Below are positions 1,899 through 50,482 of a stretch of 52,098 nucleotides of DNA, in pieces. A program made the position numbers and the translations under genes. Below the pieces are notes generated by a model, which made no database searches, was not told the DNA's origin, and saw only the letters and a list, made by a program, of their open reading frames with translations. The stretch lies in the NCBI GenBank assembly GCA_003671275.1, contig QWPB01000013.1, positions 1-52,098 of the forward strand. Reading direction: 5' to 3'. The stretch is from Planctomycetota bacterium (GTDB lineage: Bacteria; Planctomycetota; Planctomycetia; Planctomycetales; Planctomycetaceae). Every line of letters starts with the position of its first letter. Within the stretch, counting starts at the first letter, position 1.

Positions 1899-2399
1899 AT
1901 GTTCGGAAGTAAGAACACTCGTTCGAAGTCAGAGCCCGCCGCGATTCCTGCGGTGGCTCCCAAAATCTCCGCTCCGGTCAAGGAAACCGTCATGCCCACG
2001 AATCGCAACTACATCTCGGCTGGCACCGTCATTGAGGGAAACATTGTCTCTCATGAGGACCTGCACCTCGATGGCACCGTGAAGGGTGACATCAAGACAA
2101 CGGGTCGCCTGATCCTCGGCAAAGACTCCAACATCGAGGGAAACATCCTCGCATCCGAAGCCGAAGTCGCGGGCCGCATCACGGGAACGGTGGAATCGAA
2201 GGGATTGCTCACCATTCGCGCCACCTGCAAGATCTTCGGCGACATTGTCACCAAGAGCCTGAATGTCGAGTCCGGTTCGTCGTTTAACGGTCGGTGCAAG
2301 GTCGGTGGCGAAACCGAATCACACGCACAAAACACAGCCATTCCGCGAGCGGCAGCCCCGGCGGCTGCCGCGACAGCGAACGCTTACGCCAAGGTGTAA
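1899..2399 (+). CDS. Bactofilin (DUF583 polymer-forming cytoskeletal protein)
   Basis: A 166-aa protein with the bactofilin core at about residues 38-140. The right-handed beta-helix repeats are visible as a run of short strands: SAGTVIEGNIVSHEDLHLDG, TVKGDIKTTGRLILG, SNIEGNILASEAEVAGRITG, TVESKGLLTIRATCKIFGD and IVTKSLNVESGSSFNG. Bactofilins polymerise without nucleotide into filaments at the inner membrane and scaffold cell-shape, stalk or chromosome-positioning proteins. The N-terminal tail (KNTRSKSEPAAIPAV) and the Ala-rich C-terminal tail flank the core as usual. AAAGGAAGG lies just ahead of the ATG. It is the first gene of a same-strand block running to 12341, which suggests that the following unknown proteins work with a scaffold. 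Confidence 0.92.
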   Translation: MFGSKNTRSKSEPAAIPAVAPKISAPVKETVMPTNRNYISAGTVIEGNIVSHEDLHLDGTVKGDIKTTGRLILGKDSNIEGNILASEAEVAGRITGTVESKGLLTIRATCKIFGDIVTKSLNVESGSSFNGRCKVGGETESHAQNTAIPRAAAPAAAATANAYAKV

Positions 2400-2520
2400 C
2401 TCGACCTGCTCGGGGTTGAGACTAAGCCTGACAATCTGATCCGTCGAACCTCTCGTGCCTTCCCGAGGTTCGACGCGATCAGAAGACTCGTCCCAACGGA
2501 TTGCGTCCGAAGGACAGACA

Positions 2521-2527
2521 AAAGGGG
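2521..2527 (+). promoter_or_regulatory. Ribosome binding site that fixes a GTG start at 2533
   Basis: AAAGGGG lies 5 bases ahead of GTG 2533. No comparable site precedes the earlier in-frame GTG at 2455, so the shorter form of the downstream protein is preferred. Confidence 0.55.
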
Positions 2528-2532
2528 ATACC

Positions 2533-3102
2533 GTGCCACGAAACGTCGTGGAACTCGAACAACAACTGCGGTCGCTGCAAAGCGAACGTGAGGCCCTGGT
2601 TCTCGACATGCGGCGTCTGGGCGAGCAGCTACGGCAGCGGGCACTGATCCGAAATGAACATTCGATCGCGGACTTCAGCGGCTATGGAGACCGTCACCGC
2701 CAACTGCAAGTCGCACTGGATCTCGATCAGACCGGCGCCGCGATCTGGTCCGAATTCGAATCTCGAATCAACATGCTGCACCGGGTGACAATGGCACTCG
2801 CCACTGTGCGACCGCTTCGACAGCTGGCGATGACTGACGGAGTGGATCCAGAACTGCTGGCTCCGGTTCTGAACGATCTGGATGCCGTGGAAACACGACT
2901 GACCAATACCCCCTGGATCGATTCCGACCTCTTAATCCAGCTTGAGGAGTTGCACCATCCGCTTGCCGTGGTCTGGAAATTCCTGAACGAGCGAGCGTAT
3001 CTGACGGACGAGGCCTGGTCCCTCGCCGTGAATGTCATCACCCAGACCTATGGACCTCGGTTGGCCACCGCCATTTTGCGTGACCGCATTCCGATCGGCT
3101 AA
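2533..3102 (+). CDS. Unknown 189-aa helical protein, paralogous to part of the 1005-aa neighbour
   Basis: Starts at GTG with a Shine-Dalgarno sequence and begins PRNVVELEQQLRSLQSEREA, a short coiled coil (about residues 3-40). The C-terminal part, about residues 95-185, contains WIDSDLLIQLEELHHP, LNERAYLTDEAWSLAVNVI and YGPRLATAILRDRI. The same order of landmarks (W, Q, HP, acidic-then-AW, LGRA or YGPR) occurs at about residues 145-210 of the 1005-aa protein encoded at 3395-6412. I read the two as sharing a domain that was duplicated within the locus. No catalytic motif is visible, and I cannot name the family. The next gene begins 35 bases downstream, so an operon is likely. Confidence 0.7.
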   Translation: MPRNVVELEQQLRSLQSEREALVLDMRRLGEQLRQRALIRNEHSIADFSGYGDRHRQLQVALDLDQTGAAIWSEFESRINMLHRVTMALATVRPLRQLAMTDGVDPELLAPVLNDLDAVETRLTNTPWIDSDLLIQLEELHHPLAVVWKFLNERAYLTDEAWSLAVNVITQTYGPRLATAILRDRIPIG

Positions 3103-3137
3103 GCCATTCACTTCACACTCACTCCAAGGAGTCTTCC

Positions 3138-3383
3138 ATGAGCAGTGCCAATTACCGTCGACTGCTGACCAATCTGCCATCCATGGCCGCCGTCGTGAAT
3201 TCGTTTCAGTCCGAGGAGGTTCAGCTGGCCGTCTACCGGGTTCTGGTTGACTCCCTGCTCGAAGCCACCGCAGATGAACCCTCCGCCTCTGCGATCCGAT
3301 CGTCTCGTAGCAGGAGCCGTCCGAATGAGATTGAGCACGAGCTAGTAGAGGGCGACAACATCCACTCCATAGCCGCCGACTGA
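3138..3383 (+). CDS. Small hypothetical protein, 81 aa
   Basis: A clear AAGGAG sits upstream of the ATG. The first 45 residues look like a helical hairpin (NYRRLLTNLPSMAAVV, FQSEEVQLAVYRVLVDSLLE), and the rest is a polar, Arg/Ser- and acid-rich tail. No known domain is seen. It sits between the 189-aa and 1005-aa proteins, with gaps of 35 and 11 bases, so it is almost certainly co-transcribed with them. An adaptor or small regulatory subunit is possible, but nothing in the sequence proves it. Confidence 0.65.
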   Translation: MSSANYRRLLTNLPSMAAVVNSFQSEEVQLAVYRVLVDSLLEATADEPSASAIRSSRSRSRPNEIEHELVEGDNIHSIAAD

Positions 3384-3394
3384 ACTGCATTGCC

Positions 3395-6300
3395 ATGGCT
3401 CGTCTTCCACCGATTGAGCACTCTCCCGCTTCCGGATATCCCAGTATGGCCGCTGACATTGCCATCCTTCAGGAACGACTCGACCAGCTGCAACATCTCA
3501 GTGGCAGCCTGTCTGTACGACTCGAGTCCGAAGCTGTTCAGCTGGAACAGACCGGAACCCCGCCCACGGCATCTCTCATTGCCGATCTAACATCGTTGCA
3601 GGAGCAGACCGATCAGCTCTACGCACTGATGGGCGAAGAAGGCACGAATGGCCCCTGGCACACTTGCGATGATCTGGCGGCTGAGATCGACCGACAGCAG
3701 GCAATCACTCCCATCCATCAACTGATCGAGCGCATCCTTTTGATTCAAGGTATCGATGAGGCGTCGCAATCCGCCATCGCCGCCTTGCACGATGAAGCTC
3801 GCCAGGTTGCCGCGGCCCCGACGAGTTTCTGGACGCCGGAACAGATCCAGAGCGTACAGACCGGACAGCATCCCTGGATGACACTGGTCACCCTGCTCGA
3901 GGACGGAGCAACACTCGACGACACCGCCTGGACAGCACTGAACACCAGGCTGGAATCGAGCCTGGGGCGGGCGGTCTCCGTTGCCGCAGCTCGAGGGCGA
4001 TTGAAGTTCCGCGAAGCAATAAAGTCGATCCACCTCGCGGATACATCATTCCCAACGATTCTGAATGATTCCTTGATCTCCGCATGGACCACCCAGACAA
4101 CGCCTCCCTCGTCCGATGAACTGGCCCTCATCGAAGACCACGTCGCGGTGCCTTTTCCCGCCCCGGAAGTGCAACTCCCCAGTCTGCCGGACAATGCCTC
4201 CGTCAGGACATTCGAACGCAGCGTCATCGCACTGCGAGCCACCGATCAACTGGCGTCCACGGACCTGGACAACCTGTCCGGCGAAATTCTGGATCACCCG
4301 ACGCTGGCGTTTGTCCGACCGGAAGTACGAACTCAGGAACTATCAACCAGCGTGCTCGATGACTGGAGTGAGGATTTGGTTCCGTTGAGGAATCCCGATC
4401 GGAACCCGGCGGCAGCGTCCACGAAGACTCCGCTGTCGACGATCCCGGACTCAGTCATCCCTTCCGTTCATCAGAATCATGATCGAATCTCGCGCGGACC
4501 TGATAATCGCATTGCTCCCGAAAGTATCAACAAAAGCATCTTTGATGATGATGACTCGGACTATTTACCCGGAATGCTGGGGAGTACGGACCCGCGATCA
4601 CCGGGAGCCGCTCGGTCACTGGAATCGTTTCAGCCATCACGCCTCGCCGAGTACCTGCTGACCCAGGCAAGATTCTCCGATCCCTCCGGTGCCACGGCGA
4701 ACCTGGCCGCCGAGATTCTCAACAACCCCGAGGCGAATCGCACAACCCTGCTGCCCGACCTGATACTCCATCTGATTCACGAGGGACGCCCCGGACTGGC
4801 GTACCATCTGGCACGTGGACTCGAAGAACGCACTCAGGAATCGAAGAATTTCGTTCCGTCGTGGCTGGTTCGAGTCTGGACGTTTGCCCATGCACTGCTG
4901 TTTCCGAAGGGCCAATTGGCCGGGATGATTCAAGATGATCTCCAGCAGCATGAATCGCGAATTCCCCGTAAAACACAATCAGACTGGGATCTGGCCCTGT
5001 CGTTGATGATCCGGGCGGCCACATTACGGCCAGCGATCGTTGCCCCGATGACCCGAGCCGCCTCGACGCTGCGGGCCTTTGACCTGCGGGATGGATGCGT
5101 TCAGCTCTACAACTACTGTTCACGAATCGGCAGTTATGGCGAGCGGATTCAAGGGGTTTATCCGGGATTGTTTAAGCAATCCACGGTGGCGACACCCTAC
5201 TCGGAGCAATGGTCAGCACTGCGCGACGACGTTCGCAACTGGCTGGATGATCCCACATCCGTCGGCATTCAATTCGATCTGTGTGCCCCGCTGTTTCAGA
5301 AGGCCCACTGGAGTTTGCGGTCAGCTGGAATGCAGCGGTCGCCCGAGGCTGCCGACACCTGGAAGAATTGGCAGATCGCGTTGCGTCATGCCAAATCGAT
5401 CATCGATCCGGTGATCGCCAATCACCGGCCGGATCTGAATCGCGTCCGCTCGGAGGTGGAAGAAATCTCCGGCATGTTGGCAGCTCCTGTGGAAGATGCG
5501 GATGCTCGCGAGTCGTTCTCGCAGCCCGAAATCCGGGCTTATCTGCGGCAGGCTCTGACCTTTGCCCAACGATGGATCACCCTTCATCAGCGGGCCGCAA
5601 ACTCGGAGACACAAAATTACCTACCTCAGACAGCGGTTGAGCTGCGATCGGAAATCGAGTCCCGACACGATGCCGTCATGGAAGAGCTTCAGGTACTGGC
5701 CAGTTCCTACCCCGCCGTCGAAGTCCGGATGGCGGTGGCCTGTCTGATGTTGTCGGCCCAGGAAATCCGGGACATGGTCAACCCGACAAAACCTGCCGAA
5801 TCGGTCGAGCCCGATCCGCGGCATCTCCTGCACTCCGAGCTGCTGAAGATCACATCAATCAACCTGAACTCCAACTGGGAGCCGGAACTCGATTTCCACA
5901 ACCTGGAAGACGAAATCCTGAACTATCTCTCCCAACCCCAGCCGGACTGGACCACGGCTCTTAAATTGCACTTGAGTCAGGGAAACCACTCCGCAGCGGA
6001 TCGGATTCTCTCCATGAGTCTCTGGTCAGCCGAGGAACGAGAAGCCCTGCAGGCGGTACTGGTGAACGACCGCGACCGCAAACGCACCGAATTCTCAGAG
6101 GATGTGAATTACGTCCGACGGTTGCTGAATGAGACGATTCAGCTGAATGCGATCCCGGACAGTGAACGAGTGGTCTTTCAAACGCGCCTTTCGAAGCTGG
6201 AACGGGTTCTCGAATCCGATGCGGATTTATCGACGGGCCTTCAGGAACTCAATCGATTGCGTAGCGGACTGCTAAAACAACGGGAACGGGAAGCGGAACG

Positions 6301-6412
6301 GATCCGAAATCGGCTCCGTCAACTGGGACGCCCCCCAGCCCCCTCCGAGCGCGACGAAACCCAATCCGAAAGTCCCGCTCCCAAAGGCTGGATCATGGAC
6401 TTCGAGAACTAA
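3395..6412 (+). CDS. Unknown large alpha-helical protein, 1005 aa
   Basis: No recognised domain and no signal peptide. The N-terminal 220 residues are helical and include the landmark block (FWTPEQIQSVQTGQHPWM, LEDGATLDDTAWTALNTRL, LGRAVSVAAARG) shared with the 189-aa protein encoded at 2533. Residues about 320-410 are polar and low in order (DDDDSDYLPG). From about 415 to the end the protein returns to long helices with many Arg, Glu and Leu, finishing in a likely coiled coil (LSKLERVLESDADLSTGLQE, then KQREREAERIRNRLRQ). This build suits a scaffold or adaptor. The start is taken at ATG 3395, 11 bases after the previous stop; ATG 3446 (MAADIAILQERL) is an alternative. The next gene begins about 50 bases later. 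Confidence 0.7.
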   Translation: MARLPPIEHSPASGYPSMAADIAILQERLDQLQHLSGSLSVRLESEAVQLEQTGTPPTASLIADLTSLQEQTDQLYALMGEEGTNGPWHTCDDLAAEIDRQQAITPIHQLIERILLIQGIDEASQSAIAALHDEARQVAAAPTSFWTPEQIQSVQTGQHPWMTLVTLLEDGATLDDTAWTALNTRLESSLGRAVSVAAARGRLKFREAIKSIHLADTSFPTILNDSLISAWTTQTTPPSSDELALIEDHVAVPFPAPEVQLPSLPDNASVRTFERSVIALRATDQLASTDLDNLSGEILDHPTLAFVRPEVRTQELSTSVLDDWSEDLVPLRNPDRNPAAASTKTPLSTIPDSVIPSVHQNHDRISRGPDNRIAPESINKSIFDDDDSDYLPGMLGSTDPRSPGAARSLESFQPSRLAEYLLTQARFSDPSGATANLAAEILNNPEANRTTLLPDLILHLIHEGRPGLAYHLARGLEERTQESKNFVPSWLVRVWTFAHALLFPKGQLAGMIQDDLQQHESRIPRKTQSDWDLALSLMIRAATLRPAIVAPMTRAASTLRAFDLRDGCVQLYNYCSRIGSYGERIQGVYPGLFKQSTVATPYSEQWSALRDDVRNWLDDPTSVGIQFDLCAPLFQKAHWSLRSAGMQRSPEAADTWKNWQIALRHAKSIIDPVIANHRPDLNRVRSEVEEISGMLAAPVEDADARESFSQPEIRAYLRQALTFAQRWITLHQRAANSETQNYLPQTAVELRSEIESRHDAVMEELQVLASSYPAVEVRMAVACLMLSAQEIRDMVNPTKPAESVEPDPRHLLHSELLKITSINLNSNWEPELDFHNLEDEILNYLSQPQPDWTTALKLHLSQGNHSAADRILSMSLWSAEEREALQAVLVNDRDRKRTEFSEDVNYVRRLLNETIQLNAIPDSERVVFQTRLSKLERVLESDADLSTGLQELNRLRSGLLKQREREAERIRNRLRQLGRPPAPSERDETQSESPAPKGWIMDFEN

Positions 6413-6463
6413 ACCCTGTGTCGCATGACATCGAATGGACTTGAGAGCAGGGGCGAAACACAC

Positions 6464-9400
6464 ATGGCAGAATCACCCACACCAACGACTCACCTCCCAC
6501 ACCCCAGGACTCTTCTGGGACGTGACGCCATCCTTGCGTTACTGGAAAATCAGCTACTGACCCGGACTCGCAATGTGCTGGGTGTCGACCCGGCAATTAC
6601 CAATGGCCGGGGAGTGGGACGCACACGGATTCTCGACGAGTTGGAACACCGTCTATCGAGATCTCAGACAGTATTGCGATTGTCTGCATCCGGCCCCGTC
6701 GCATGGGATCACTCTCTTTACCGTGTGACGCAACACCTGGAGGTCATGGGTTCCAGTGGCCAGCGACTCTCCCACCGAACCCATGCGTTGCGCCAATGGC
6801 TCCAATCGCACGAGGATTGGGTACTGATTGTTGACTCCCTGGATGAATGGGAGCCCCTGATCGAACTGACTCAGGGAATCACCTCGGGCAGTTTTCTGGT
6901 CGCCGTGAATGACGGTCGCATCGAATCGCCGGAGGGCTGGCCAGCAGCGATCCCCCTGGGAGCATTGGCCGCTGAGGATGCGCTAACGCTCCTGAAAAAT
7001 GTTCTGCAAAGGGACTGGCACAATCCGGAAGAACGACTGGCGGCGATTCAACTGGTCCAGTGGCTGGAATGTGTTCCTCGTCTCATTGAACGGGCCGGGA
7101 CCACGATCCGCATCAGTGAGCTGAATTGCGAGGCGGGACTGACTTTGCTGCGGCAAATGCCGGATCAGTCCCTCAGCGGAAAAACACTCCGTGGAATCCT
7201 GCTGGCCCTCGAAAAGCATGCTCCCAAGACGATGGAACTGCTGGCCACTGCTGCGATGTTTGGGACACTCCCGATCTCGCAACTCTGGATCGCTCATTGG
7301 ATGCGCCAGCTGGGTTGCGATCGGGGGGAAGATTCGAACAGCCTGCTGAATGGTTCCGGACTCCTGGAATTCCATGCCGGTCGGGACGAGATCACCGTCG
7401 CGGCTCGCCGTGAGGTGGGTGAGATTCTCTCTCCAGAGATCTTCTGTCGCAGTGCCCATCGGGCGTTGGAAGTATTACCACCGGCGGCAGACAAAAGTCG
7501 ACTGTCCGCACTCATCACCGGCCTTCCTGAGGGGACCACCGATCCGTGGGCGCACTTTCGAATCGCCCTGGGCGAGACGATCGAACGGTTCCCCCCCTTC
7601 GATGCCGAGCAGACTCAATGGCTGCGACAGGCCGTCGAAGCAGCACTCGACCTTTCTCTGTACACGCTGGCTCAGCGACTCCTGTTGAAACTACTGAGCC
7701 AGCAGATTCAGGCATCCATTCCCGAATCGATACTACGGACTACGCTCGTCCAGTTGGGATTGGCCTACCTGCAAGGAGAACAGTTTCAGCAGGCCCGCTG
7801 TCGCCTGCGACAGGCTCTTGAATTCTGCCATGGGGAAGAGCCGCTCACCACGGAACTTTTATTGGCCATCGCCGAAATCGACATCAACGAAAATCGCATG
7901 GAGCGGGCCGCCTCCCGCCTGGCGGATGTCCCTTCTCATGCGAGCGGGTACACCTCGCCACACGGTCCGTTGTATGCTGCCCGGCAGCGATTCCTGCAAG
8001 GCGGCATCGCCCTGGGAACCCAGGACGCCAGCGAGGCGCGACGGCATTTTCAGGAATCACTGGAGATCCGTGCGGGGTACCTTCCCGTCGATCATCCAGA
8101 CATGATGAAGACCCGATTGATGCTGGCTCGTACCGAGTTCATGCTCAAGAATTACGCAGCCAGTGAAGTCTTACTGCGAGCGGAAGTCGACATCCGCAAA
8201 CGGTCACCGAATGCGTCTCCCTCCGACGTGGGAGTCGCCCTGAATTTCCTGGGTGAGTTGTACTATCTGTTGGGTCGTCATCAGGACGCCGAGCCGGTCT
8301 ATGAGCATTCCCTCACTTTGCGCCGACAGATTCACCCCGGCGGTCACCGGTTGATTGGAGAAATGGCCGACCGGCTGGCGGTGATTAAGTCGTCGCGCGG
8401 AGCTTATCGGGAATCGGATGACCTCTTTCGCGAGGCGATCACGATCCTGGAAGGAGCCTACGGGCCGGATCACCCAGAGGTCGCGCGCGTCTTGACAGAT
8501 CTGGCGGAAAGCCTATTCGCTCAACACAAGGTCGATCCCGCCCGTCGGTTACTCGAGCGTTCGCTGAATATCCAAGAACGTGCCCTGCGTTCGAACGATC
8601 CACGCCTGGCTCGAACCTGCTGTAATCTGGCTGCGGTGTATGTGGCCCGGGGGCGTTTCACCGATGCCATTCGCCTGTATGAACGTGACATCCAGCAACG
8701 GGAAGGAGCCCAGCGTTCGGACAAATCCGCGTTGGCCACCTCACTGAATAATCTGGCCGAGGCACTCCGATCCGTCGGGCGGTATGACGAAGCCGAACAG
8801 CGACTAAACCTGGCTCTCGCTCTGCGAGAACAAACTGTCGGACAGGAGCATCCCCAGTCCGCACAGATCCTGGGAAATCTCGGCTTTCTCAACTACCAGC
8901 GACATCGCTTCGCAGAGGCCCGCGACTACCTGGAACGATCTCTGCGGATTCGTCAGAAGATGCTGGGCCCCCAGAATCCTCAAGTGGCCATTTCGCTCAT
9001 CGCGTTGGGTGATACGCTGTTTGCCTGCCAGCAATACTCGGAAGCCCGCCCCCTCCTTCAACAGGGATTGGAGATCCTGCTGGCCGCCTACGGAGACCGT
9101 CACCCGCAATGTATCTCCGCTCAGATCAGCACGGCTCGTAATGAATTGCGACTGGGCCATGTGGGCCGAAGTGAATTAATGCTGCTGCGTGCCCGGACCA
9201 TGTTGCAGGAACTCCTGGGACAGGACCATCGGCTGTCTGCCAAGGCGCTCCTCGCCCTGGCCGAACTGGCCCACTTCGAAAAACGGTACGACGATGCCTT
9301 TCCGATGCTGGAGCGATGCCTGGCGATTCAGAAGGGTACTTCCAGCGTCGATCACCTTGATATGACCGAGACCCTTGTCACCATTGCGGCCAATCTGATT

Positions 9401-10132
9401 GCCCGCAAGCTGCATGCGGAAGCACTGCCCCGCGTCCTTCAGGCGCTGGAGATTCAGCATCAGGTACTGGGGCCCTCGCACCCCGAGATGCTCCCGCATC
9501 AACTCATGGTCGGACAGATTCAGCAGGAACTGGGAAACACCCCAGCTGCCGAAGAGGCGCTGCTGGCGGTACTGCACACTGCGGAATCACCGAGCACTCA
9601 AGAGATTCATGACACCGCGGAAAGCCTGCTGATCGATGTACTGATCCGTCGACAGAAGTACGATGCAGCAGCCCATCGACTGCAGCGCCAATTAGCCCAG
9701 GCACAGACTCGCGATGATCCCGCCACGACACTCCGACTGAGTTGCCAGCTGGCGTCGCTGCACTACCTGCAATCGGCCTACGAACAGGCCCGGACACTGA
9801 TGCAGAACTGTGTCACTCTGAGCGAACAACTCCACGGCCCAGCGCACATTGAAACCGCCAAGCATCTCGACAATCTAGGGGGCGTTCACTTCCTGCTGTC
9901 GGATCACGCCTCTGCTGAAAAAGCGGTGCTGCAATCGATTGCCATTCTGGAGCAGAACCCGACTCCGCAGGCTCGGGATCCGCTGAGCAAAGCGAGAAGC
10001 AATTATGCAGAACTCCTGCGACGCACTCACCGTCTGGATGAAGCCCAGCAACTGGACGAGTGTGTGCGGGCCACAAATACCGTAACCACGGGGCAGATCG
10101 CCCAATCGCATGTGCTGGACGACCTCTTCTAG
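6464..10132 (+). CDS. STAND-like NTPase remnant fused to a long TPR array, 1222 aa
   Basis: The first 180 residues have the layout of a STAND/AP-ATPase fold. A glycine-rich loop GRGVGRT (residues 48-54) carries Arg where Walker A normally has Lys, then DWVLIVDSLDEW (118-129) looks like Walker B, FLVAVNDGR (144-152) sits where the sensor arginine strand falls, and IPLGALAAEDALTLL (163-177) matches the 'pL...eA..LL' motif after the NB-ARC core. Residues about 400-1190 are roughly 42-residue TPR repeats of the kinesin light chain/TPR_12 type (for example DPRLARTCCNLAAVYVARGR and DKSALATSLNNLAEALRSVG). In the family such proteins are signal-gated scaffolds; the altered P-loop suggests loss of, or altered, ATP hydrolysis. 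ATG 6464 is preferred over 6425 because AGCAGGGG precedes it. It ends 10 bases before the FKBP gene. Confidence 0.8.
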   Translation: MAESPTPTTHLPHPRTLLGRDAILALLENQLLTRTRNVLGVDPAITNGRGVGRTRILDELEHRLSRSQTVLRLSASGPVAWDHSLYRVTQHLEVMGSSGQRLSHRTHALRQWLQSHEDWVLIVDSLDEWEPLIELTQGITSGSFLVAVNDGRIESPEGWPAAIPLGALAAEDALTLLKNVLQRDWHNPEERLAAIQLVQWLECVPRLIERAGTTIRISELNCEAGLTLLRQMPDQSLSGKTLRGILLALEKHAPKTMELLATAAMFGTLPISQLWIAHWMRQLGCDRGEDSNSLLNGSGLLEFHAGRDEITVAARREVGEILSPEIFCRSAHRALEVLPPAADKSRLSALITGLPEGTTDPWAHFRIALGETIERFPPFDAEQTQWLRQAVEAALDLSLYTLAQRLLLKLLSQQIQASIPESILRTTLVQLGLAYLQGEQFQQARCRLRQALEFCHGEEPLTTELLLAIAEIDINENRMERAASRLADVPSHASGYTSPHGPLYAARQRFLQGGIALGTQDASEARRHFQESLEIRAGYLPVDHPDMMKTRLMLARTEFMLKNYAASEVLLRAEVDIRKRSPNASPSDVGVALNFLGELYYLLGRHQDAEPVYEHSLTLRRQIHPGGHRLIGEMADRLAVIKSSRGAYRESDDLFREAITILEGAYGPDHPEVARVLTDLAESLFAQHKVDPARRLLERSLNIQERALRSNDPRLARTCCNLAAVYVARGRFTDAIRLYERDIQQREGAQRSDKSALATSLNNLAEALRSVGRYDEAEQRLNLALALREQTVGQEHPQSAQILGNLGFLNYQRHRFAEARDYLERSLRIRQKMLGPQNPQVAISLIALGDTLFACQQYSEARPLLQQGLEILLAAYGDRHPQCISAQISTARNELRLGHVGRSELMLLRARTMLQELLGQDHRLSAKALLALAELAHFEKRYDDAFPMLERCLAIQKGTSSVDHLDMTETLVTIAANLIARKLHAEALPRVLQALEIQHQVLGPSHPEMLPHQLMVGQIQQELGNTPAAEEALLAVLHTAESPSTQEIHDTAESLLIDVLIRRQKYDAAAHRLQRQLAQAQTRDDPATTLRLSCQLASLHYLQSAYEQARTLMQNCVTLSEQLHGPAHIETAKHLDNLGGVHFLLSDHASAEKAVLQSIAILEQNPTPQARDPLSKARSNYAELLRRTHRLDEAQQLDECVRATNTVTTGQIAQSHVLDDLF

Positions 10133-10142
10133 AAGAATTGCG

Positions 10143-10580
10143 ATGAACAATCCTATCGACACCATACATCCGAACGATCGCGTCCAGATTCGATATACGA
10201 CCCGCTCCCTGGAAGGGAGCGTGATCGAGACATCGGATCGCCGCGAAGCGCTGGAGTTTCACGCGGGGAACGAGAGTGTCATTCCTGGAGTTTCGCAGGC
10301 CGTGATCGGCATGCGTCTGGGTGAATCTCGCACCGTAACCGCCCCCCCCGAACGCGCGTTCGGTCGCCACAACCCAGACTTGATTCAGTCGACGCCACGT
10401 TCATCGGTTCCCCTTGACACACATGTCGGCGACCAGTTGAGCACGACCTTTGGAAACTCTCGGTTTGATGTCTGGGTCCAGCGGGTCACCAGCACCGAAG
10501 CGATTGTGGATGCCAACCATCCTCTGGCAGGGGAAACCCTGGTGATCGATCTGACAATCGTGGGACACGACCCCGCCTGA
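10143..10580 (+). CDS. FKBP-type peptidyl-prolyl isomerase, SlyD-like, 145 aa
   Basis: The order of motifs is that of SlyD-type FKBPs: VQIRYTTRSLEGSVIETSD, then IPGVSQAVIGMRLGESRTVT and APPERAFGRHNPDLIQ, an insert-in-flap segment (about residues 70-125), and the closing DANHPLAGETLVIDLTIVG. These enzymes catalyse proline cis-trans isomerisation and have chaperone activity through the flap. The His-rich metal-binding tail of E. coli SlyD is absent. No signal peptide, so cytoplasmic. The start at ATG 10143 has AGAAG upstream; a longer frame back to 10110 overlaps the previous gene and is not supported. The 10-base gap to the STAND/TPR gene makes co-translation likely and suggests that it folds or regulates a product of this locus. 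Confidence 0.88.
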   Translation: MNNPIDTIHPNDRVQIRYTTRSLEGSVIETSDRREALEFHAGNESVIPGVSQAVIGMRLGESRTVTAPPERAFGRHNPDLIQSTPRSSVPLDTHVGDQLSTTFGNSRFDVWVQRVTSTEAIVDANHPLAGETLVIDLTIVGHDPA

Positions 10581-10761
10581 CACGGGCGAAAGCCGATTGT
10601 GCAGGTTGTTTCGAAATCGCCACAACGGAAATTGAACAGAACTGCGACCACGGATGGTCAACAGCTGAAACGTCTCGTAAAACGGACGTTTCGAGCCTGA
10701 CACACCCCTCAGCGGTCCGGCCTGGCCATGACCGTCTTGCGTCCGAACAGGACAACTCAAC

Positions 10762-11964
10762 ATGTCACTGAAGCTCACTGCCGAATCGTTTCTCAATGGG
10801 GTCAAGCAAAGCGGCTTGACCGATCCAGATTCGCTCGACGTTCTCATCAAGTCACTTCGGAGTGAAGGAATCGACATCCTCAACTCCACGTCCCTCGCGG
10901 ACGCATTGATCACCAAGGGATGGATTACGCCCTGGCAGTCCGAGAAACTCCTCCAGGGAAAGTTCAAAGGCTTTCTTCTGGGACGTTACAAGTTGTTGAA
11001 CCTGCTGGGTAAAGGCGAGATGAGCTCGATCTATCTGGCCGAACACACCCGGATGAAACGCCGCTGCGCGATCAAGGTGCTTCCCGCGAACAAGGTCCGA
11101 GACACCTCCTACCTGGGACGCTTTCAGCGCGAAGCCCAGGCCGTAGCGTCGCTGGACCATCCGAATATTGTGCGGGCCTACGACGTCGACACGGAGAAGG
11201 AAGGAGGCGTTGAGATCCATTTCCTGGTCATGGAGTATGTGGAAGGCAAAGACATTGAGAAGCTCCTCAATGCCAAGGGACAGTTCACACTGATCGAAGC
11301 TGCTGATTACATCCGCCAAGCCGCCGACGGCTTATCCCATGCCCATGAAAAGGGCCTCATTCACCGGGACATCAAGCCCGGCAATCTGCTGGTGGATACC
11401 AAGGGTACCGTGAAGCTGCTGGATCTAGGGCTGGCTCGATTCTTCCGCGACACTGAGACAGAGTCCCTGACCATCAAGCATGATGAAAAGGTTCTGGGAA
11501 CTGCGGATTACCTGGCACCGGAACAAGCGGTCGACAGCCATGCCGTCGACGAACGAGCCGACATTTACAGCCTTGGCTGCACGTTTTACTTCGCCTTGAC
11601 CGGACATCCGCCATTCACGGACGGAACACTCGTGCAGCGGTTACTGGCCCACCAGACAAAGGCCCCCCCGCCCATCCGCAAACAGCGAACCGATGTCCCG
11701 GAAGGCCTCGCCGCCATCATTGACAAGATGATGATGAAGCGCAAGGACGACCGCTATCAGTCGGCAGCTGACGTTTCCGCAGCGATCGGCAAGTGGCTGG
11801 TCGAACATGGGGGCGACCTGTGGCGCAAAAGCCACCCTGGTCAAGTCGCGCATTTCGCCGGAATGGAAGCCATCCATCCCGCCACATCACCCAATGCCAT
11901 ACCTGCTCCCCCCCCCCCACTCCCATCAACCCAACTTCCACGCCAGCGACCACTCCCGGAATAG
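10762..11964 (+). CDS. Hanks-type Ser/Thr protein kinase, truncated by a frameshift at a C11 tract
   Basis: Residues 1-75 are an N-terminal helical module (ESFLNGVKQSGLTDPD, then LADALITKGWITPWQSEKLL) that is also present in the kinase at 48694-50358. The kinase domain (about 76-345) has the catalytic set: loop LGKGEMSS (82-89, the third glycine replaced by Ser), K105 in CAIKV, HRDIKPGN (201-208), DLG (221-223, Leu for Phe) and APE (252-254), so it is probably active. The frame then enters eleven C (11908-11918) and stops after an odd Pro-rich tail at 11964. The minus-one frame continues open to 12341 and encodes a linker and a membrane helix. With 12 or 9 C the product would be about 526 or 525 aa with a C-terminal anchor, the usual layout for such kinases. 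It is the last gene of the bactofilin block. Confidence 0.88.
   Translation: MSLKLTAESFLNGVKQSGLTDPDSLDVLIKSLRSEGIDILNSTSLADALITKGWITPWQSEKLLQGKFKGFLLGRYKLLNLLGKGEMSSIYLAEHTRMKRRCAIKVLPANKVRDTSYLGRFQREAQAVASLDHPNIVRAYDVDTEKEGGVEIHFLVMEYVEGKDIEKLLNAKGQFTLIEAADYIRQAADGLSHAHEKGLIHRDIKPGNLLVDTKGTVKLLDLGLARFFRDTETESLTIKHDEKVLGTADYLAPEQAVDSHAVDERADIYSLGCTFYFALTGHPPFTDGTLVQRLLAHQTKAPPPIRKQRTDVPEGLAAIIDKMMMKRKDDRYQSAADVSAAIGKWLVEHGGDLWRKSHPGQVAHFAGMEAIHPATSPNAIPAPPPPLPSTQLPRQRPLPE
11908..11918 (+). repeat. Homopolymer of eleven C at the kinase frameshift
   Basis: Eleven consecutive C, read as Pro codons in the kinase frame. Gain of one C or loss of two would join the kinase domain to the membrane-anchor frame. 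Such a tract is prone to slipped-strand mispairing in the cell and also to sequencing error. Confidence 0.9.
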
Positions 11965-12341
11965 ATCGTCCCAGCCAGGCGGGACTTGCCAAAACACTGA
12001 AGCCGCGACGTCCTGGATCCAGTGTGCTTCTCTTGAAGGCAGCCGCATCGCCCAATGCCGCCAAGAAACCCGCCCTCGAATCCAAGTCGACACGTGATAG
12101 TAAACGTCCCACCTGGATCGCCGGACCGCCCTCCGCTCCGCTGGCACCGCCTCAGCTCCCGCCCGTGGTTTCGGCATCGCCAGACAACCGATTTGACCGC
12201 CGATTCATCACGCTGGCAGCTCTGATCCTGGGTGCGGTTCTGCTGATCACGGGTGTGGGATACACTCTGATCGCCGGATCGGACGACGGGAAACCCGAAG
12301 TCATTCCGGAAACGGAAGTTCCCGGGGCACCGACCAAATGA
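11919..12341 (+). pseudogene. Detached C-terminal part of the Ser/Thr kinase: Pro/Ala linker and membrane anchor
   Basis: Read one base back from the kinase frame, the DNA after the C tract encodes about 85 residues of Pro-, Ala- and Lys-rich linker (TPINPTSTPATTPGIDRP, LKPRRPGSSVLLLKAAAS, KKPALESKSTRDSKRP). A strong membrane helix follows (RFITLAALILGAVLLITGVG), then a short acidic tail ending PGAPTK at 12341. It has no start codon or ribosome site of its own at a sensible place, so it is best read as the displaced end of the kinase gene. Whether it is joined by phase variation, programmed slippage or only after correcting a sequence error cannot be told from one sequence. Confidence 0.75.
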
Positions 12342-14197: not shown

Positions 14198-17100
14198 TCA
14201 ATGATCGTGGTGATGCTCATGATTATGAGCCGCACCGAAGATGGCGTTCTTCTGGTCTCCGCGGGCGATCACGTAGGCCAAGAGGTCCAGGATCTCGTCT
14301 CGGGTCAGCTTATCCAGGAGCCCCTTCGGCATGATCGATGTCGGGGACTTCGTTCGCGATTCGATGTTCGATTTCTCGATTGTCACCGCAGCTGTCTTGG
14401 CCAGTGGGTTCTCGAGGATCTTGATCGCGTCACCGGTCTCTTCGAGGATCAGGCCGGTATGCACCTTGCCTTCCTTGGTCTCGATGATGTAACTCTGGAA
14501 CTTCTCGTTGATGTTTGCGGAGGGTTCCAGGATCGACTTCAAGATGTCGGCGGGCATCTGCTTGGCTTCGAGCTTCGCGAGATCCTGACCGACCTCCTGG
14601 CCGACTCCGTTCAGCTTATGGCAGGCAATGCAGTTCGTGGCTGCGAAGATCTGCTTGCCGTTGCCGAAGTTGCGGCCACCGTGGGCGACCTCATCCAGCA
14701 GCGGGGCGAGCTCTTCGATCGTCCAGGCTTTGCGAGGGCGGTTAAACTTCAGCAAGTTGTCCTGGGCGGCAACCGCGTTTTTCGCAAGGTAGCCCTCCGG
14801 ATCGGCCTCGTAGGCATCGAGGTCCGCCACGACATAGAGTGCCCCGAACATCCGCCGCCAGTGCCCCGGATAGGTACACACATACGGGTAGACGCCGGGT
14901 TCCTTCGGGACGTTAAAGCTCAGCTTCTGCACGTTACGCGGTTGGAGCAGGGTGCTGGAGAGCAACACCTTGTTCGAGGTCGGAACATAGTGCCGTTCGA
15001 GGGCTCCCGGCTGAGTGGCCTGAGCCTCAGCAGCCAGTCCGACTTCTTCGAGCGATCCTGGTTGGATGATCACGAAGTTGTGCGGCATGATGTCGGTGTT
15101 CTCGAACAGGAACTCGACCGGCTTGCCGGCCTGCACGATCAGGCGTTCCTTGTCGTACAGCATCTGGTCCGGCACGGTGCCGACGCGGATGATCCGTACA
15201 CCGATCTCGCCCAGCCTGGCCCGCATCGCCTTCCCCTGATCGGCAGGCAGCAGCGAGGTCAGCTCGTAGCCGAACTGAATCGCACTGAGTGCTGCCGGTG
15301 AGGTACGCTCAGCGGGAGGCAGGGGAGCGAGGTACGCGATCACCGAATCGAGTAGCGGCTGGGCTTGATCGACGGCCCACTCAGACTTTGGCAACCGCTG
15401 AATGGCGTCAATCGCCACCGTGCGATCGGTCCCGGTGAGGGCGAATCTCACCAACTTGTTGAACGCGTTGGCTTCCTGTCCACGGACCGTCGTCAAGGCC
15501 AGCATCGCCGAGCGGCGGATCAGCAGTTCAGGGTTGCCTGCGGACATATCGAAGTCCGACTTGGGCCGCGGACCGGGCAGCCCGCGCAGAACCTGAACCT
15601 CTTCGCGATTGGCATCCAGAACCTTGAGCGTGAACCCGTCCAGGCGGGACTCGAATCCCTCCGTCCGGTTGAAGATCGAGACTCGCTCGACCGGATACTC
15701 CGCTCCCAGATCGACTTCCCACCAAGGGTCCTGGCCATCCTCCGGAGTGTGAGTCTGACCGCCAGCCGCATAGATCGGATTCGTGTTGCCATCAATGGCT
15801 CGCTGAGCGTTCCCGCTGTGCGAGGTCTTGGACTGAGACGCTTTTCCACGACGAGCCACATTGGTCCCATCGCTATAGACCTCCACTTCCGCCAGCGTCA
15901 ACGGACGGCGTCCCTGCAACTCAACACGGATATACCGTCCGAAAGAACCCTTCGTGTTGGCGTTCCCCGACCGCAGGTTTTCCGGAAGACCATCCAGAAG
16001 TGGCTCGACCTTGGGATAGAGAGCAGCCCGTACACTCGGATCGCGGACCATCGGCATGGCGTTGACCAGATCGCGTAGCGACTTAGCGGACTTCGATGCC
16101 AGCTCCCACGACGGATCGACCGAGCCATCGGCTGCGATCTTCGCCACATAACCAAGCTGGCGAGTGATCGGCTGCTTCGACTCGGTCGCCATCTTGACCA
16201 ATAGAGGACCGGCCTGCTTCTGCTCGTCATCACTCAACCGCGTCAGTACACGGAGCAGGTCAAAGGCGATCGTCTCGCTGCCGCTGGAGGTCGCATCGAG
16301 CCCCAGCAACTGCTGCACCAACAGCTCCGACGCCGAGACGTTGCTCGCAGCGGCGAGTGACCGCAGCACCGATTCTCGCAGTTCGTCACGGACTCCCGAC
16401 CGGAGCAACAGATCCTGGGCCACCATGCGGTAGCGAGCAGTGTTGGAATCGCTGGCGTCGGCGTGAGCAAGTTCTCCTTCCAGACGGATCAGTTCATCGG
16501 TGCTCATGGTCTGAAACAGGTACCGCACCCCAGCGGGGGTTTTCATCGCGATCGGCGTCTTCGCATCAACCGCCGACTTCCAGATCGGTTCGAGAGTCTT
16601 CATGGTCTCAATGGCGAGGTACTCGACCGCGCGGTCCGTTTCCTGCTCGCGAGCGACCACAACGACTTCAACCGCCTCGGGCTTGGTCAGAAAGCTGGCC
16701 GTGCGGACCGCTTCCGCTCGCACACGCGGATGCGGATCGGCGGCTGCGGTGCGAAGCAGGTCGAGCGTTTCGGGGATACGATCCCGCCAGTAGCAAAGGA
16801 CGCGACCGGCAGCTGCGCGAGCGCGATGGTCCTTCGAGGACAACATCCGCTTCAGCAGCCCATCGTTGACGACATCGTGGGACTGATGGACCCACAAGGC
16901 CTCCAGCATGTGGTGCTCATAGTCCGCATCGCCAGCCTTGAGTGTCTTCACCCAAGCGAACACAGCGGCCATCACTTGATCTGTCTTGCGTCCGCTCAAC
17001 TCGATCTTCGCTCGATACCGAACGCGGTCGTACGGCGACTCCAGCAGTTTGACGAGGTCTGCCTCAGACTTCTTGGTGAGGTCATCGCTCTTGAGAGGTG

Positions 17101-19222
17101 CCTTTCCGGTCGCGGTCACACGGTAGACACGTCCATGCGTCCGATCACGATTGGGATCACGCAGGTTGTGTTGCATGTGGCCAATGATGGGGTTCTGCCA
17201 GTCGCCGAAGTACAAGGCCCCGTCCCCCGCGATCTCCAGATCGGTCGGGCGAAAGTTCGGGTCGGTTGAAGTCACAATCGGCTCGACCTCGGTACCAACG
17301 ATCGTGCCGCCATCTTCCCTCAGCTGATACTGCAGGATTCCCTGAAAACCGATGACATTGCTAACCACCAGATTCCCTTGCAGGTCGGCTGGGAAATGTT
17401 CGCTGGAGAGAATCTCGGTGCCTGCGGTCGGACGGGTCCGCTGCTGATAGATTTGCGGCGGAGTCGCGTGTTTTTGCGGGTAGTTCATATGCCCGGAGAA
17501 CAGCCAGCCGGGGTAGGGCTGGGAGCCCGTGCCGTCGTGAACGATGTCGTTCCCCCAGCGGTCCCAGACGTGTCCGTGCGGGTTCGCGAAGCCATGGGTC
17601 ACATAGACGCTGAACTTCTGTGTCCGTGGCTCATAGCGGAACACACCGCCGTTCGAGCAGCGAGCCGGCGGCCCCCAAGTCGATTCGACTTGAGACTGGT
17701 GGAAGGTTCCTTCCTGAAAGTAGAGCGATCCGCCCGGATCGAGGGCGAAGCTGTTGGAGGCGTGGTGCGTATCAGCGGAGTCGAGTCCATTGAGGACGCG
17801 CACGCGGACATCGGCCTGGTCATCGCCGTCAGTGTCTTTGAGGAACAGTAAATCGGGCACGCTCGCGACGAGTACGCCGCCCCCGTAGAACTCAAAGCCC
17901 GTCGGGTTGTGCAGGTCACCGGCAAACGTGATGCACTTGTCAGCCACGCCATCCTTGTCGGTGTCTTCCAGGATCAGCAGCGAGTCGTTCACCGGATCTT
18001 TCGGCTTCCAGTGCGTGTACATCGGCCAGCAGGCGACCCACACACGGCCCTTCATATCGGTGGCCATCTGCACCGGGTTAATCAGCTCCGGAAACTGCTT
18101 CTCGCTCGCAAACAGATTGATCTCCATCCCGGGATGAACGGTCATCTTGGAGATCGCCTCATCCCCACCATCGAGGAAGATGTGCTCCCCATTCGGCCCC
18201 GGTCCCGGCTTGTTCGAGATCACCGGAATAAACGGCTCGGTCTGGGAGTCGTCGACTACAATGTCGCCCTTCCCCTGGGCGATCGACCAAATCCGCTCAT
18301 CGCGGTATCCGGTCATCTGGTCGAGAATCGCCATTTCACGCTGGGCCACGACCAGGTTCGTTTGCTTCTCCGGTTCGAACACTAAACCGGAACGACCACC
18401 GAACACCGAGAACCCATCCGTCACGCGGTAACGGTTGAACCAGTGATGGTCCTTGTCACGGATGGCTTCGATCAGCTTGGAGTCCAGCGGCTTGCCGGGG
18501 TTCTTCAAGGCCGCGGCCCGATCAGGATACAAGGCGCTGATGATATCGACAGCCAGCCAGTGATGCGCGCTGTCCACAGAATGCAGCCCGTCAATCGTCG
18601 AGGTCAACGGCTTCTGCGAGAGATCCACCACAGGAATCGCATTGGCCGTGGCGACCTCGACCATCACCTGAGCATAGGCGGCAATGCGGGCGTTGATTTC
18701 AGCGTTGCGAGCCGCTTCGAGGGCGGTGGCTTTGGTGGTTCCGAAGACCGGATGCTCCCATTGGTCAGCCACCTTCGGCGGCGTGATCAGTACCAGTCGT
18801 GGGGCATTCTCGCCGTTGTACTTCTGCCCGAGGGTGTGCTTCACGAACCCGTCGAGTTCCCCCTTGAACCCTTCCAGCCCAGCCTCGCCCTTCCAGCTCT
18901 CGTTGTAGCCAAAGAACGCCAGCACCACGTCGGTCTGCGTCCGGGTCAGCCACTCGTCCGGCGAGCCAAAGTTCTGCGACCGCAGCCGCATGTTCAGCTC
19001 ATCTCCCGAGAACCCCAGGTTCCGAAACGACAGCTTCTGATCGCGAAACTGCGTCTGAAAGACCGCTTCAAACAGCCCATCATGCTGAAGCCGGTCAGCC
19101 ATCGTATTGCCGATGAACGACACGTGGTCACCCGGTTGAAAGACAAACTTCGCTGGCTCATCCGCCACACTGATTGTGGCACACATCAAGAGCCAGACCA
19201 CTCCACAGGCCAATCGGTTCAT
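14198..19222 (-). CDS. PVC-type multidomain redox protein: SGNH, beta-propeller, HEAT, discoidin, azurin-like and cytochrome c domains
   Basis: A 1674-aa exported protein. Residues 1-20 are a signal peptide; a GGAAGAG site fixes ATG 19222. Next come an SGNH/GDSL-like domain (HVSFIGNTMADRL, FGYNESW), a PVC-type beta-propeller (about 340-720, with Asp-rich DTDKDGVADKC and DTDGDDQADVRV), HEAT repeats (about 720-1050) and an F5/8-like discoidin domain (GRYIRVELQGRRPLTLAEVE, WWEVDLGAEYPVERVS). The azurin-like domain has a full type-1 copper set (H1381, C1449, H1454, M1458, with azurin spacing C-x4-H-x3-M). The cytochrome c domain has C1531-x2-C1534-H1535 and a probable axial M1631. The tail is His-rich (HNHEHHHDH). 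The pairing suggests electron transfer from a propeller-bound reaction through copper and haem outside the cytoplasm. The substrate is unknown; related proteins are linked to carbohydrate oxidation. Confidence 0.9.
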   Translation of the reverse strand: MNRLACGVVWLLMCATISVADEPAKFVFQPGDHVSFIGNTMADRLQHDGLFEAVFQTQFRDQKLSFRNLGFSGDELNMRLRSQNFGSPDEWLTRTQTDVVLAFFGYNESWKGEAGLEGFKGELDGFVKHTLGQKYNGENAPRLVLITPPKVADQWEHPVFGTTKATALEAARNAEINARIAAYAQVMVEVATANAIPVVDLSQKPLTSTIDGLHSVDSAHHWLAVDIISALYPDRAAALKNPGKPLDSKLIEAIRDKDHHWFNRYRVTDGFSVFGGRSGLVFEPEKQTNLVVAQREMAILDQMTGYRDERIWSIAQGKGDIVVDDSQTEPFIPVISNKPGPGPNGEHIFLDGGDEAISKMTVHPGMEINLFASEKQFPELINPVQMATDMKGRVWVACWPMYTHWKPKDPVNDSLLILEDTDKDGVADKCITFAGDLHNPTGFEFYGGGVLVASVPDLLFLKDTDGDDQADVRVRVLNGLDSADTHHASNSFALDPGGSLYFQEGTFHQSQVESTWGPPARCSNGGVFRYEPRTQKFSVYVTHGFANPHGHVWDRWGNDIVHDGTGSQPYPGWLFSGHMNYPQKHATPPQIYQQRTRPTAGTEILSSEHFPADLQGNLVVSNVIGFQGILQYQLREDGGTIVGTEVEPIVTSTDPNFRPTDLEIAGDGALYFGDWQNPIIGHMQHNLRDPNRDRTHGRVYRVTATGKAPLKSDDLTKKSEADLVKLLESPYDRVRYRAKIELSGRKTDQVMAAVFAWVKTLKAGDADYEHHMLEALWVHQSHDVVNDGLLKRMLSSKDHRARAAAGRVLCYWRDRIPETLDLLRTAAADPHPRVRAEAVRTASFLTKPEAVEVVVVAREQETDRAVEYLAIETMKTLEPIWKSAVDAKTPIAMKTPAGVRYLFQTMSTDELIRLEGELAHADASDSNTARYRMVAQDLLLRSGVRDELRESVLRSLAAASNVSASELLVQQLLGLDATSSGSETIAFDLLRVLTRLSDDEQKQAGPLLVKMATESKQPITRQLGYVAKIAADGSVDPSWELASKSAKSLRDLVNAMPMVRDPSVRAALYPKVEPLLDGLPENLRSGNANTKGSFGRYIRVELQGRRPLTLAEVEVYSDGTNVARRGKASQSKTSHSGNAQRAIDGNTNPIYAAGGQTHTPEDGQDPWWEVDLGAEYPVERVSIFNRTEGFESRLDGFTLKVLDANREEVQVLRGLPGPRPKSDFDMSAGNPELLIRRSAMLALTTVRGQEANAFNKLVRFALTGTDRTVAIDAIQRLPKSEWAVDQAQPLLDSVIAYLAPLPPAERTSPAALSAIQFGYELTSLLPADQGKAMRARLGEIGVRIIRVGTVPDQMLYDKERLIVQAGKPVEFLFENTDIMPHNFVIIQPGSLEEVGLAAEAQATQPGALERHYVPTSNKVLLSSTLLQPRNVQKLSFNVPKEPGVYPYVCTYPGHWRRMFGALYVVADLDAYEADPEGYLAKNAVAAQDNLLKFNRPRKAWTIEELAPLLDEVAHGGRNFGNGKQIFAATNCIACHKLNGVGQEVGQDLAKLEAKQMPADILKSILEPSANINEKFQSYIIETKEGKVHTGLILEETGDAIKILENPLAKTAAVTIEKSNIESRTKSPTSIMPKGLLDKLTRDEILDLLAYVIARGDQKNAIFGAAHNHEHHHDH

Positions 19223-19664
19223 GAATCTCTTCCGCGAGGTTATCAGCTGCGCCGGGCCTTCCCGGAGACGCCTCGAAAACAATAACGGGACGGACGAATG
19301 GATCAAAGCGTGTGGATTTATAATCCCAAAAATCTCTCATCCACGAATAACCCTCTCGTATCCACGGGGTCATCAGAGTCGATCGTGGTGTTCGATTGAC
19401 GAGCAGGGCTCTTGTCAAATTCACCCGCGGAATTCAAGGCATGATCGGCGGAAAACTCAGCAGTCAGCCATTCAGCCGAGATCCGCAAATCCCCGCAGTC
19501 CACCTGCGACCGTCGTTCAATCTCAGCAGAGGCAATACGCAAACCACTGGAGCGGCACAGATGCGATCGCAGGAATCTGAATACGAATTGCAACCTTCCG
19601 GCCTGTCCGATTAGTCTGCAGATGCTGCTAATTACCCCAGCGACCTCCCCACATGAGGCATCCG
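19223..19664. other. Divergent intergenic region without a supported gene
   Basis: About 440 bases between the PVC-type protein (leftward) and the membrane protein (rightward). The frames present here have neither domain signals nor ribosome sites. It must hold both promoters; an AT-rich patch near 19315-19350 is the likeliest place, but I see no convincing -35/-10 pair. Confidence 0.4.
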
Positions 19665-34813: not shown

Positions 34814-34848
34814 ATCGCAATCCTCTACTCAACTACACCCAGGGTGAA

Positions 34849-50358: not shown

Positions 50359-50482
50359 ACAAGTCCCATGGAACCAGACGGGACAAGGGAACCGAATGTC
50401 CGCCAAGCATCCATTCAACTCTAGTTTACGAATTATCGACCATCAGTAGAAGTTCCTGACGGAATCGGAGAATGCTTTTCGA

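Follow-up and report, generated by a model that had tools for sequence, protein, structure and literature searches.

The 52,098-nucleotide stretch of planctomycete DNA analyzed here (contig QWPB01000013.1 of GenBank assembly GCA_003671275.1, forward strand, positions 1 to 52,098; hereafter, at its whole length, the window) stems from a member of the Planctomycetaceae and carries a block of eight genes. In this order, they encode a protein with a predicted membrane anchor and β-barrel (P0001), a bactofilin, the proteins P0003, P0004, and P0005, a tetratricopeptide repeat (TPR) protein, an FKBP-type prolyl isomerase, and a serine/threonine (Ser/Thr) kinase (Table 1). An initial annotation of the region had listed seven same-strand genes separated by short gaps. 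All seven were found on the plus strand at the positions reported, with intergenic gaps of 35, 11, 12 or 51, and 10 bases, and the block begins one gene earlier than first described, with P0001. Scans for regulatory signals were uninformative (one promoter-like site against 4.2 and 14 terminator-like sites against 11.4 expected by shuffling).

Table 1. Features of the eight-gene block in the window.
Feature	Position	Strand	Characteristics and basis
P0001	1023..1718	+	N-terminal membrane helix and 8-stranded β-barrel (structure model); homologs just upstream of bactofilin
Bactofilin	1899..2399	+	PF04519, E 7.1e-27; N-terminal membrane-targeting-like peptide MFGSK
P0003	2533..3102 (start approximate; alternative GTG at 2455)	+	Helical domain common to the P0005 N-terminus
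P0004	3138..3383	+	81 aa; core protein; C-terminal motif type G[DE][SN]IH
P0005	3395..6412	+	P0003-like N-domain, disordered linker with SIFDD, α-helical C-domain, tail GWIMDF
P0006, TPR protein	6464..10132 (upstream ATG at 6425)	+	TPR_12, E 1.4e-90; degenerate STAND-like domain (GVGRT); C-terminal SHVLDDLF
P0007, FKBP-type prolyl isomerase, SlyD/SlpA type	~10143..10580	+	PF00254, E 2.1e-15; alignment
P0008, Ser/Thr kinase, module clade	10762..11964	+	PF00069, E 5.4e-51; frame ends early
Run of 11 C	11908..11918	+	Kinase frame lost here; longest homopolymer of the window
Kinase C-terminal transmembrane segment	12204..12278	+	In other frame than kinase domain (ORF 11793-12341); single-ORF kinases in relatives

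A Pfam scan of the window recognized the bactofilin, the TPR array, the FKBP domain, and the kinase, and the proposed identities of the bactofilin, the SlyD-like isomerase, and the Ser/Thr kinase stand with PF04519, PF00254, and PF00069 above their cut-offs. The bactofilin domain occupies residues 38–134 (94 bits, cut-off 27.9). The FKBP domain scores 57.2 bits (cut-off 21.1), and the protein matches the SlpA equivalog NF011676 nearly end to end at 58.3 bits, below the cut-off of 125. P0001, P0003, P0004, and P0005 yielded nothing above any Pfam cut-off in a scan of eight P0001, seven P0003, and 21 P0004 members and, for P0005, of the window protein alone. A profile built solely from P0003 proteins gave 88 bits in P0005, which identifies the common N-terminal domain and bears out the earlier suggestion of a novel domain common to two proteins of the locus.

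The same arrangement recurs in other genera. In a table of 28 loci from 27 genomes, all eight genes stand in the same order in eight loci of five genera (the window, L019, L020, L059, L060, L061, L065, and L068), and P0001 belongs to the block in nine loci, the window included. The conservation of gene order on which the initial annotation had staked its proposal beforehand was thus found. Identities of the relatives to the window's proteins amount to 18–68% across genera, and the flanks differ: among 23 loci (L023, L026, L064, L070, and L224 were excluded) only three of 239 cross-genus pairs have a common same-side flank homolog, while such a homolog is present in 8 of the 14 same-genus pairs. 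Values of dN/dS lie between 0.04 and 0.32 in 34 of 35 gene-by-pair comparisons (at most five relative pairs per gene, two for P0001), although these ratios are rough since many dS values exceed 1; in the remaining comparison, a TPR pair, dS was saturated and pN/pS was 0.13. The recurrence of the order in several genera despite differing flanks, together with the low dN/dS, takes the arrangement beyond chance. If the genes were neighbors by chance or because the genomes are related, and had no joint function, this would fit the fact that all carriers found belong to one family. Such an explanation is contradicted by the retention of the order at such low identities, by the 236 cross-genus pairs without a common flank homolog, and by a bactofilin that follows the module (see below), and we regard it as largely refuted; chance neighborhood as such was rejected. 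Distances of the components are correlated as well (r 0.51–0.90, with none of 300 permutations as high for any of 21 pairs), a measure that cannot separate co-evolution from shared descent. The proposal that positions 2533–10580 are probably one transcript builds on the short gaps in the window. It does not hold generally, since five relatives (L020, L065, L067, L068, and L069) carry the FKBP gene on the other strand.

Carriers of the module were found in a fraction of one family. All counts from genome searches are lower bounds, as scoring was limited to the best candidates of a first look. Within the window's family, the P0004 profile matched at least 30 of 170 genomes (about one genome in six), spread over 14 of 58 genera, and 24 of the 130 family genomes with at least 90% completeness and at most 5% contamination. 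P0005 was found in 8 of 59 genomes (the window's own included), and its profile in 24 of the 170 family genomes, although two of them, G061 (E 2.4e-6) and G123 (with the P0003 domain alone), were not counted as carriers. In larger samples, 20 of 397 genomes drawn from the class were positive for P0004, all of them within the family, and 392 genomes drawn from the phylum gave four strong P0005 matches, again all in the family, besides three marginal ones (E 7e-7 to 8e-4) that were not counted. Named records of relatives are metagenome genomes, most of which bear the label Planctomycetaceae, Planctomycetota, Schlesneria, Planctomyces, or Planctomicrobium. In G123 (L071, 6038–11271), an open reading frame (ORF) of 1525 aa and a neighboring one of 249 aa each have a P0003 domain, with no other part of the block within 20 kb, and may represent a diverged or fused relative.

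Reduced versions of the block reveal its core. Of the 28 loci, 21 contain P0004 together with the kinase. Among the exceptions, L025, L058, and L070 are located on contigs that break off in or close to the block, L023 and L026 are separate contigs from a single genome, the parts of L064 (from G105) are scattered, and L224 (from G144) has P0004 only. Of the eight families, only bactofilin, P0004, TPR protein, and kinase occur in genus g72 (L221–L223, L119, L130, L134, L137, L138, and L146, several of these names referring to the same contigs), and only bactofilin, P0004, and kinase in G112 (L228, L143). Two loci of another genus (L021, L057) are devoid of the TPR protein and P0001. Bactofilin and P0001 are missing from L022, L024, L066, L067, and L069. 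The block of G122, a genome on a single contig of 7,744,989 bases, has neither of the two. The pair of P0004 and kinase is thus the most constant, followed by the bactofilin and the TPR protein. L224 looks like a case of module loss, as P0004 lies there beside upstream neighbors like those of L130, with bactofilin, TPR protein, and kinase not found at this locus. At ~9057 of L221 (G134) P0004 is reduced to a 60-aa ORF with an internal stop, possibly by decay or by an assembly error.

The occurrence of the bactofilin is tied to that of the module. The window's genome contains one PF04519 match in total, which is the bactofilin of the block. When only matches of E <1e-20 were counted as strong (those of E 9.6e-11 or worse, among them a partial second PF04519 match in G105, were not), strong bactofilins were present in 22 of the 30 family genomes with P0004 vs. 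none of the 140 others, and in 21 of these 22, G105 being the exception, the gene lies near P0004 on the same contig. PF04519 exceeded the cut-off in 18 of 297 genomes of the class; nine of these matches were strong, all of them in module genomes, and the other nine were weak (22–34 bits for the single best stretch). Five of the weak matches fall in ORFs of 143–440 aa from other families (L236, L237, L238, L240, and L241) and are possible divergent bactofilins. In the phylum sample, 66 of 314 genomes had PF04519 above the cut-off. All 17 module bactofilins of the set begin with MF[GA] and have a lysine within the next residues, with starts inferred inside longer ORFs. A membrane-targeting peptide of the type MFSKKKK is described, in an excerpt of the Caulobacter literature, for the N-termini of many but not all bactofilins (PMC12448750).

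Such a start, together with the known role of bactofilins in stalk formation and cell shape, as recorded in excerpts of two publications (PMC12448750, PMC4460556), would suit a module for envelope growth. As with BacA in Caulobacter, the bactofilin would then guide the synthesis of wall or stalk at one pole, and the kinase would control the timing. However, no wall-enzyme family rose above the cut-off among the ten window proteins scanned, and the block of the relatives, whose flanks lay outside the scan, holds the same eight families. Some module genomes moreover do without a strong bactofilin. According to an excerpt of PMC7716917, all described members of the window's family divide by polar budding, and 140 of its 170 genomes have no P0004 match, which makes a general role in division unlikely; this patchy distribution argues against a core division function. 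We therefore hold an envelope-growth module to be rather improbable. The role in shape, division, or compartment structure suggested by the initial annotation likewise finds no backing in the families of the ten window proteins, none of which is a wall or division family. The likeness to the Caulobacter BacA–PbpC pair lies in the bactofilin with its N-terminal MF..K peptide and in the short conserved peptides that presumed partners carry in their disordered regions. In contrast to that pair, no wall synthase was found in the module, which instead comprises a kinase, a TPR protein, a helical adaptor, an FKBP, and new small proteins, and the binding is putative here.

The kinases of the module form a lineage of their own. 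In a tree of 71 kinases (22 module rows, 39 long kinases from ORFs of 706–1309 aa that do not form one clade, and 10 others), the 22 module kinases were united in one clade with a support of 100/100. The kinase domain has the catalytic lysine and the HRD and APE motifs of a Hanks-type Ser/Thr kinase; K105, H201-R202-D203, D221, and P253-E254 are invariant in all seven aligned sequences. The kinase is a single ORF of 519–640 aa (stop to stop) in 17 relatives, and a C-terminal hydrophobic segment is present in 20 of 21 (mean Kyte–Doolittle hydropathy 1.87–2.96 over 19 residues; 1.35 in L069). As only 6–59 residues follow this segment in the 21 module relatives, an outer sensor domain is missing. 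Long planctomycete Ser/Thr kinases have the same N-terminal and kinase domains and a C-terminal transmembrane segment, but the module kinases differ from them in forming their own clade, in ending soon past this segment, and in their glycine-rich loop. This loop reads GGM in 39 of 39 long kinases and GEM(S) in 17 of 22 module kinases; L069 has GETS, and four kinases of reduced loci fit neither type, for which reason GEM was dropped as a marker of the whole clade. In the four long kinases that were read (L133, L117, L144, and L112), the transmembrane segment is accompanied by a large outer part that is β-helix-like, a label taken from sequence reading with no profile. Long kinases of this build are common in planctomycete records and are near relatives of the module kinase. 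The window itself encodes two more Ser/Thr kinase ORFs outside the module clade, both on the minus strand (31703–34828 and 48694–50442), which score 252 and 222 bits, respectively, with the module kinase profile.

Two kinds of TPR protein occur, namely long ones whose N-terminal region is STAND-like and short ones that lack this region. No GK[ST] occurs at the P-loop position in 20 TPR ORFs, and the Walker A lysine is absent; the position reads G.GRT in the window, L065, L067, and L068, no clear P-loop motif is present in L019, L023, L025, and L066, and L020 seems to start with TPRs. AAA_22 remained below the Pfam cut-off in the window protein. Of the earlier description as a STAND-like/TPR protein, the TPR array thus stands, while the putative STAND-like domain lacks a Walker A lysine and is dispensable, being absent from the short forms. 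The TPR array resembles that of the TPR protein of the FxSxx-COOH system (NF040586; best stretch 723–1093), but the window protein reaches 211.8 bits with this model, below its cut-off of 300.

For P0001, the structure model (8 rows, mean pLDDT 73.7) predicts a long N-terminal helix followed by an eight-stranded barrel, and the barrel would face the cytoplasm, judging from the positive residues that follow the helix. Its best Foldseek match is Cap15 (7n34; E 1.6e-3), none reaching 0.001, and the VIA alignment with Cap15 gave Z 12.6 and an rmsd of 3.1 over 101 residues. Avidins and designed barrels tied with it, so only the fold class is established. Cap15 carries a membrane anchor, and P0001 resembles it in combining such an anchor with an eight-stranded barrel; the two differ in that P0001 has no Pfam match in common with Cap15 and that no cyclase was found among the ten window proteins. 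No sequence relatives of P0001 or P0004 were detected by profile in the PDB. The model of P0005 (16 rows, mean pLDDT 68.7, pTM 0.49) comprises a helical N-terminal bundle (17–205), a low-confidence and presumably disordered linker (208–428), a helical C-terminal domain (~430–980), and a loose tail. It has no clear structural relative among the structures compared: sequence searches against solved structures gave only two weak matches (E 0.25 and 0.93), Foldseek gave none at E 0.001 or better (best 0.044), and VIA alignments to TPR and other helical repeats (Z 5–6) reflect merely a common arrangement. The best VIA row, which matches a DnaK model at Z 9.5 along 96 residues in the C-terminal helices, is of a kind expected for helical bundles.

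A cassette for defense or stress signaling, with the Cap15-like barrel and the STAND–TPR protein as sensors and the kinase responding to what they detect, could draw on the patchy distribution, on the STAND–TPR architecture, and on Cap15, a cyclic-dinucleotide receptor, as the best match of P0001. The kinase in addition strongly matches the PADLOC models of the PD-T4-6 anti-phage kinase, with which it has the kinase domain in common (up to 351 bits, best E 2.7e-105). It matches 36 PADLOC families at once, however, which reads as general kinase similarity, and its partners match no specific defense model; P0001 to P0005 and the FKBP match no PADLOC model, and the TPR protein matches two TPR models and, weakly, PDC-S20 (E 0.003). 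The tie of Cap15 with avidins and designed barrels, the missing Walker A lysine and the short TPR forms, and the lack of a cyclase among the ten window proteins scanned also argue against such a cassette, as do the strong purifying selection and the correlated divergence of the parts. A defense function consequently appears quite unlikely.

Several proteins of the module share a further trait, namely short conserved peptides in disordered tails and linkers. The P0004 tail G[DEST][SN]IH is found in all 24 copies of the set, against 0.009 expected by shuffling; of three copies outside the set, that of G134 has the motif, that of G105 ends in DSSIHD, and that of G144 has lost it. Among the TPR proteins, 18 of 20 have [SCA]H[VA]L as their C-terminal motif (0.076 expected), and P0005 has tails of the types W.MD or FDIFS in 14 of 21 (0.073 expected); a looser expression for the P0005 tail was set aside, since it matched 17 of 21 but 7.5 were expected. 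An expression for the bactofilin tail matched 6 of 17 (0.18 expected). In the P0005 linker, S[IV]F[DE] occurs in 13 of 18 sequences (0.11 expected; three rows without the N-terminal domain were excluded). Where P0005 is missing from loci of the set, this linker motif stands in the bactofilin tail in three of four cases (L119, L130, and L134, but not L143), and the bactofilin tail of L146 also carries it. Conserved peptides at such positions suggest docking. A precedent for peptide docking on a bactofilin is Caulobacter PbpC, which, as described in an excerpt of PMC12448750, binds BacA polymers via a 13-residue N-terminal peptide ending in YKFDD.

Taken together, we consider it about an even chance (a probability of roughly 0.5) that the block is one conserved module, most likely a membrane-attached scaffold for a dedicated Ser/Thr kinase with helical adaptors. 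What is observed is the conserved block, the co-occurrence of its parts, the P0004–kinase core that is usually accompanied by the bactofilin and the TPR protein, the kinase clade without an outer domain, and the peptides; from these we infer polymerization, the location at the membrane, docking, the targets of phosphorylation, and the cellular process involved. The bactofilin would polymerize and bind the inner membrane via its predicted N-terminal peptide, and the kinase would be anchored in the same membrane by its C-terminal helix. With the outer domain of the long kinases missing, the signal that reaches the kinase would be of intracellular origin. P0004, the TPR protein, and P0005 may dock on common components via the short peptides in their disordered tails and linkers, which would result in a multivalent assembly whose composition is probably set by phosphorylation through the kinase. 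The FKBP may help to fold or to switch one of the partners, and the anchored barrel of P0001 may act as an accessory ligand-binding input. In a more specific and clearly more tentative version, which would make the module a hitherto unknown signaling assembly of budding bacteria without FtsZ, a membrane-bound bactofilin filament would gather the sensor-less kinase and the TPR and helical adaptors via the docking peptides, with the anchored barrel as ligand input, so that the kinase would be switched by a cytoskeletal polymer rather than by an extracellular sensor. The earlier proposal of one module of scaffold, adaptors, and kinase is thereby supported in its make-up, through linkage, co-occurrence, the kinase clade, and putative shared docking peptides, but not in its role in shape, division, or compartment structure.

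A number of observations weigh against the scaffold reading. Eight of the 30 P0004 genomes, one of them complete, are without a strong bactofilin, which thus is dispensable in some lineages, and two family genomes without P0004 have weak PF04519 matches above the cut-off (G059, in a 5304-aa ORF, and G153, in a 141-aa ORF). The module parts are scattered in G105, the sole remnant in G144 is a P0004 without the tail motif, and the bactofilin ORF of L146 has no MF start. The linker motif is missing from 5 of 18 P0005 linkers (L024, L062, L063, L064, and L066) and is kept in L022 and L067 in the absence of a bactofilin, so that the motif may have P0004, the TPR protein, or the kinase as its partner instead. 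In the P0004 tail of the window, asparagine takes the place of the serine that most copies have, which speaks against a putative phosphorylation of this residue. All peptide expressions were written after the sequences had been seen, and the loci are related to one another. The window's kinase, finally, is cut at 400 aa, with the frame lost at the run of 11 C and the transmembrane segment in another frame. The initial annotation had taken this for a displaced membrane anchor, but a kinase split by design is rejected, because the relatives have single ORFs and no homopolymer in the window is longer than the one at the break. The frame may have been lost through an assembly error, a real mutation, or phase variation.

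As a whole, the system matches none of the known systems that were tried, while its parts include known families. Among the matches listed in a search of the open-access literature, subscription papers being outside its scope, there was no paper on such a module. With the order kept, the parts co-occurring, and four proteins without a Pfam family, the original notion of an undescribed system holds, and the module looks like an undescribed signaling or assembly machine. Planctomycetes are named as an exception to FtsZ-dependent division in an excerpt of PMC4460556. The module may bear on how they organize their cells; as all nine strong bactofilins of the class sample lie in module genomes, it offers a direct handle on the role of this cytoskeletal polymer there. 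If the bactofilin indeed controls the kinase, this would be a new way of wiring the cytoskeleton to signaling in bacteria.

Bactofilins of other planctomycete classes have the domain in common with those of the module but are arranged differently. In 18 of 20 loci two bactofilins lie side by side, and no other module profile was found within 3-kb stretches except for the kinase of L265. In the latter locus, from another planctomycete class, a single bactofilin has as its neighbor a divergent Ser/Thr kinase encoded on the other strand, possibly an independent pairing. Downstream of the block, the window contains on its minus strand (14198–19306) a 1702-aa ORF that, from a reading of its sequence alone, resembles a planctomycete multi-domain secreted heme protein.

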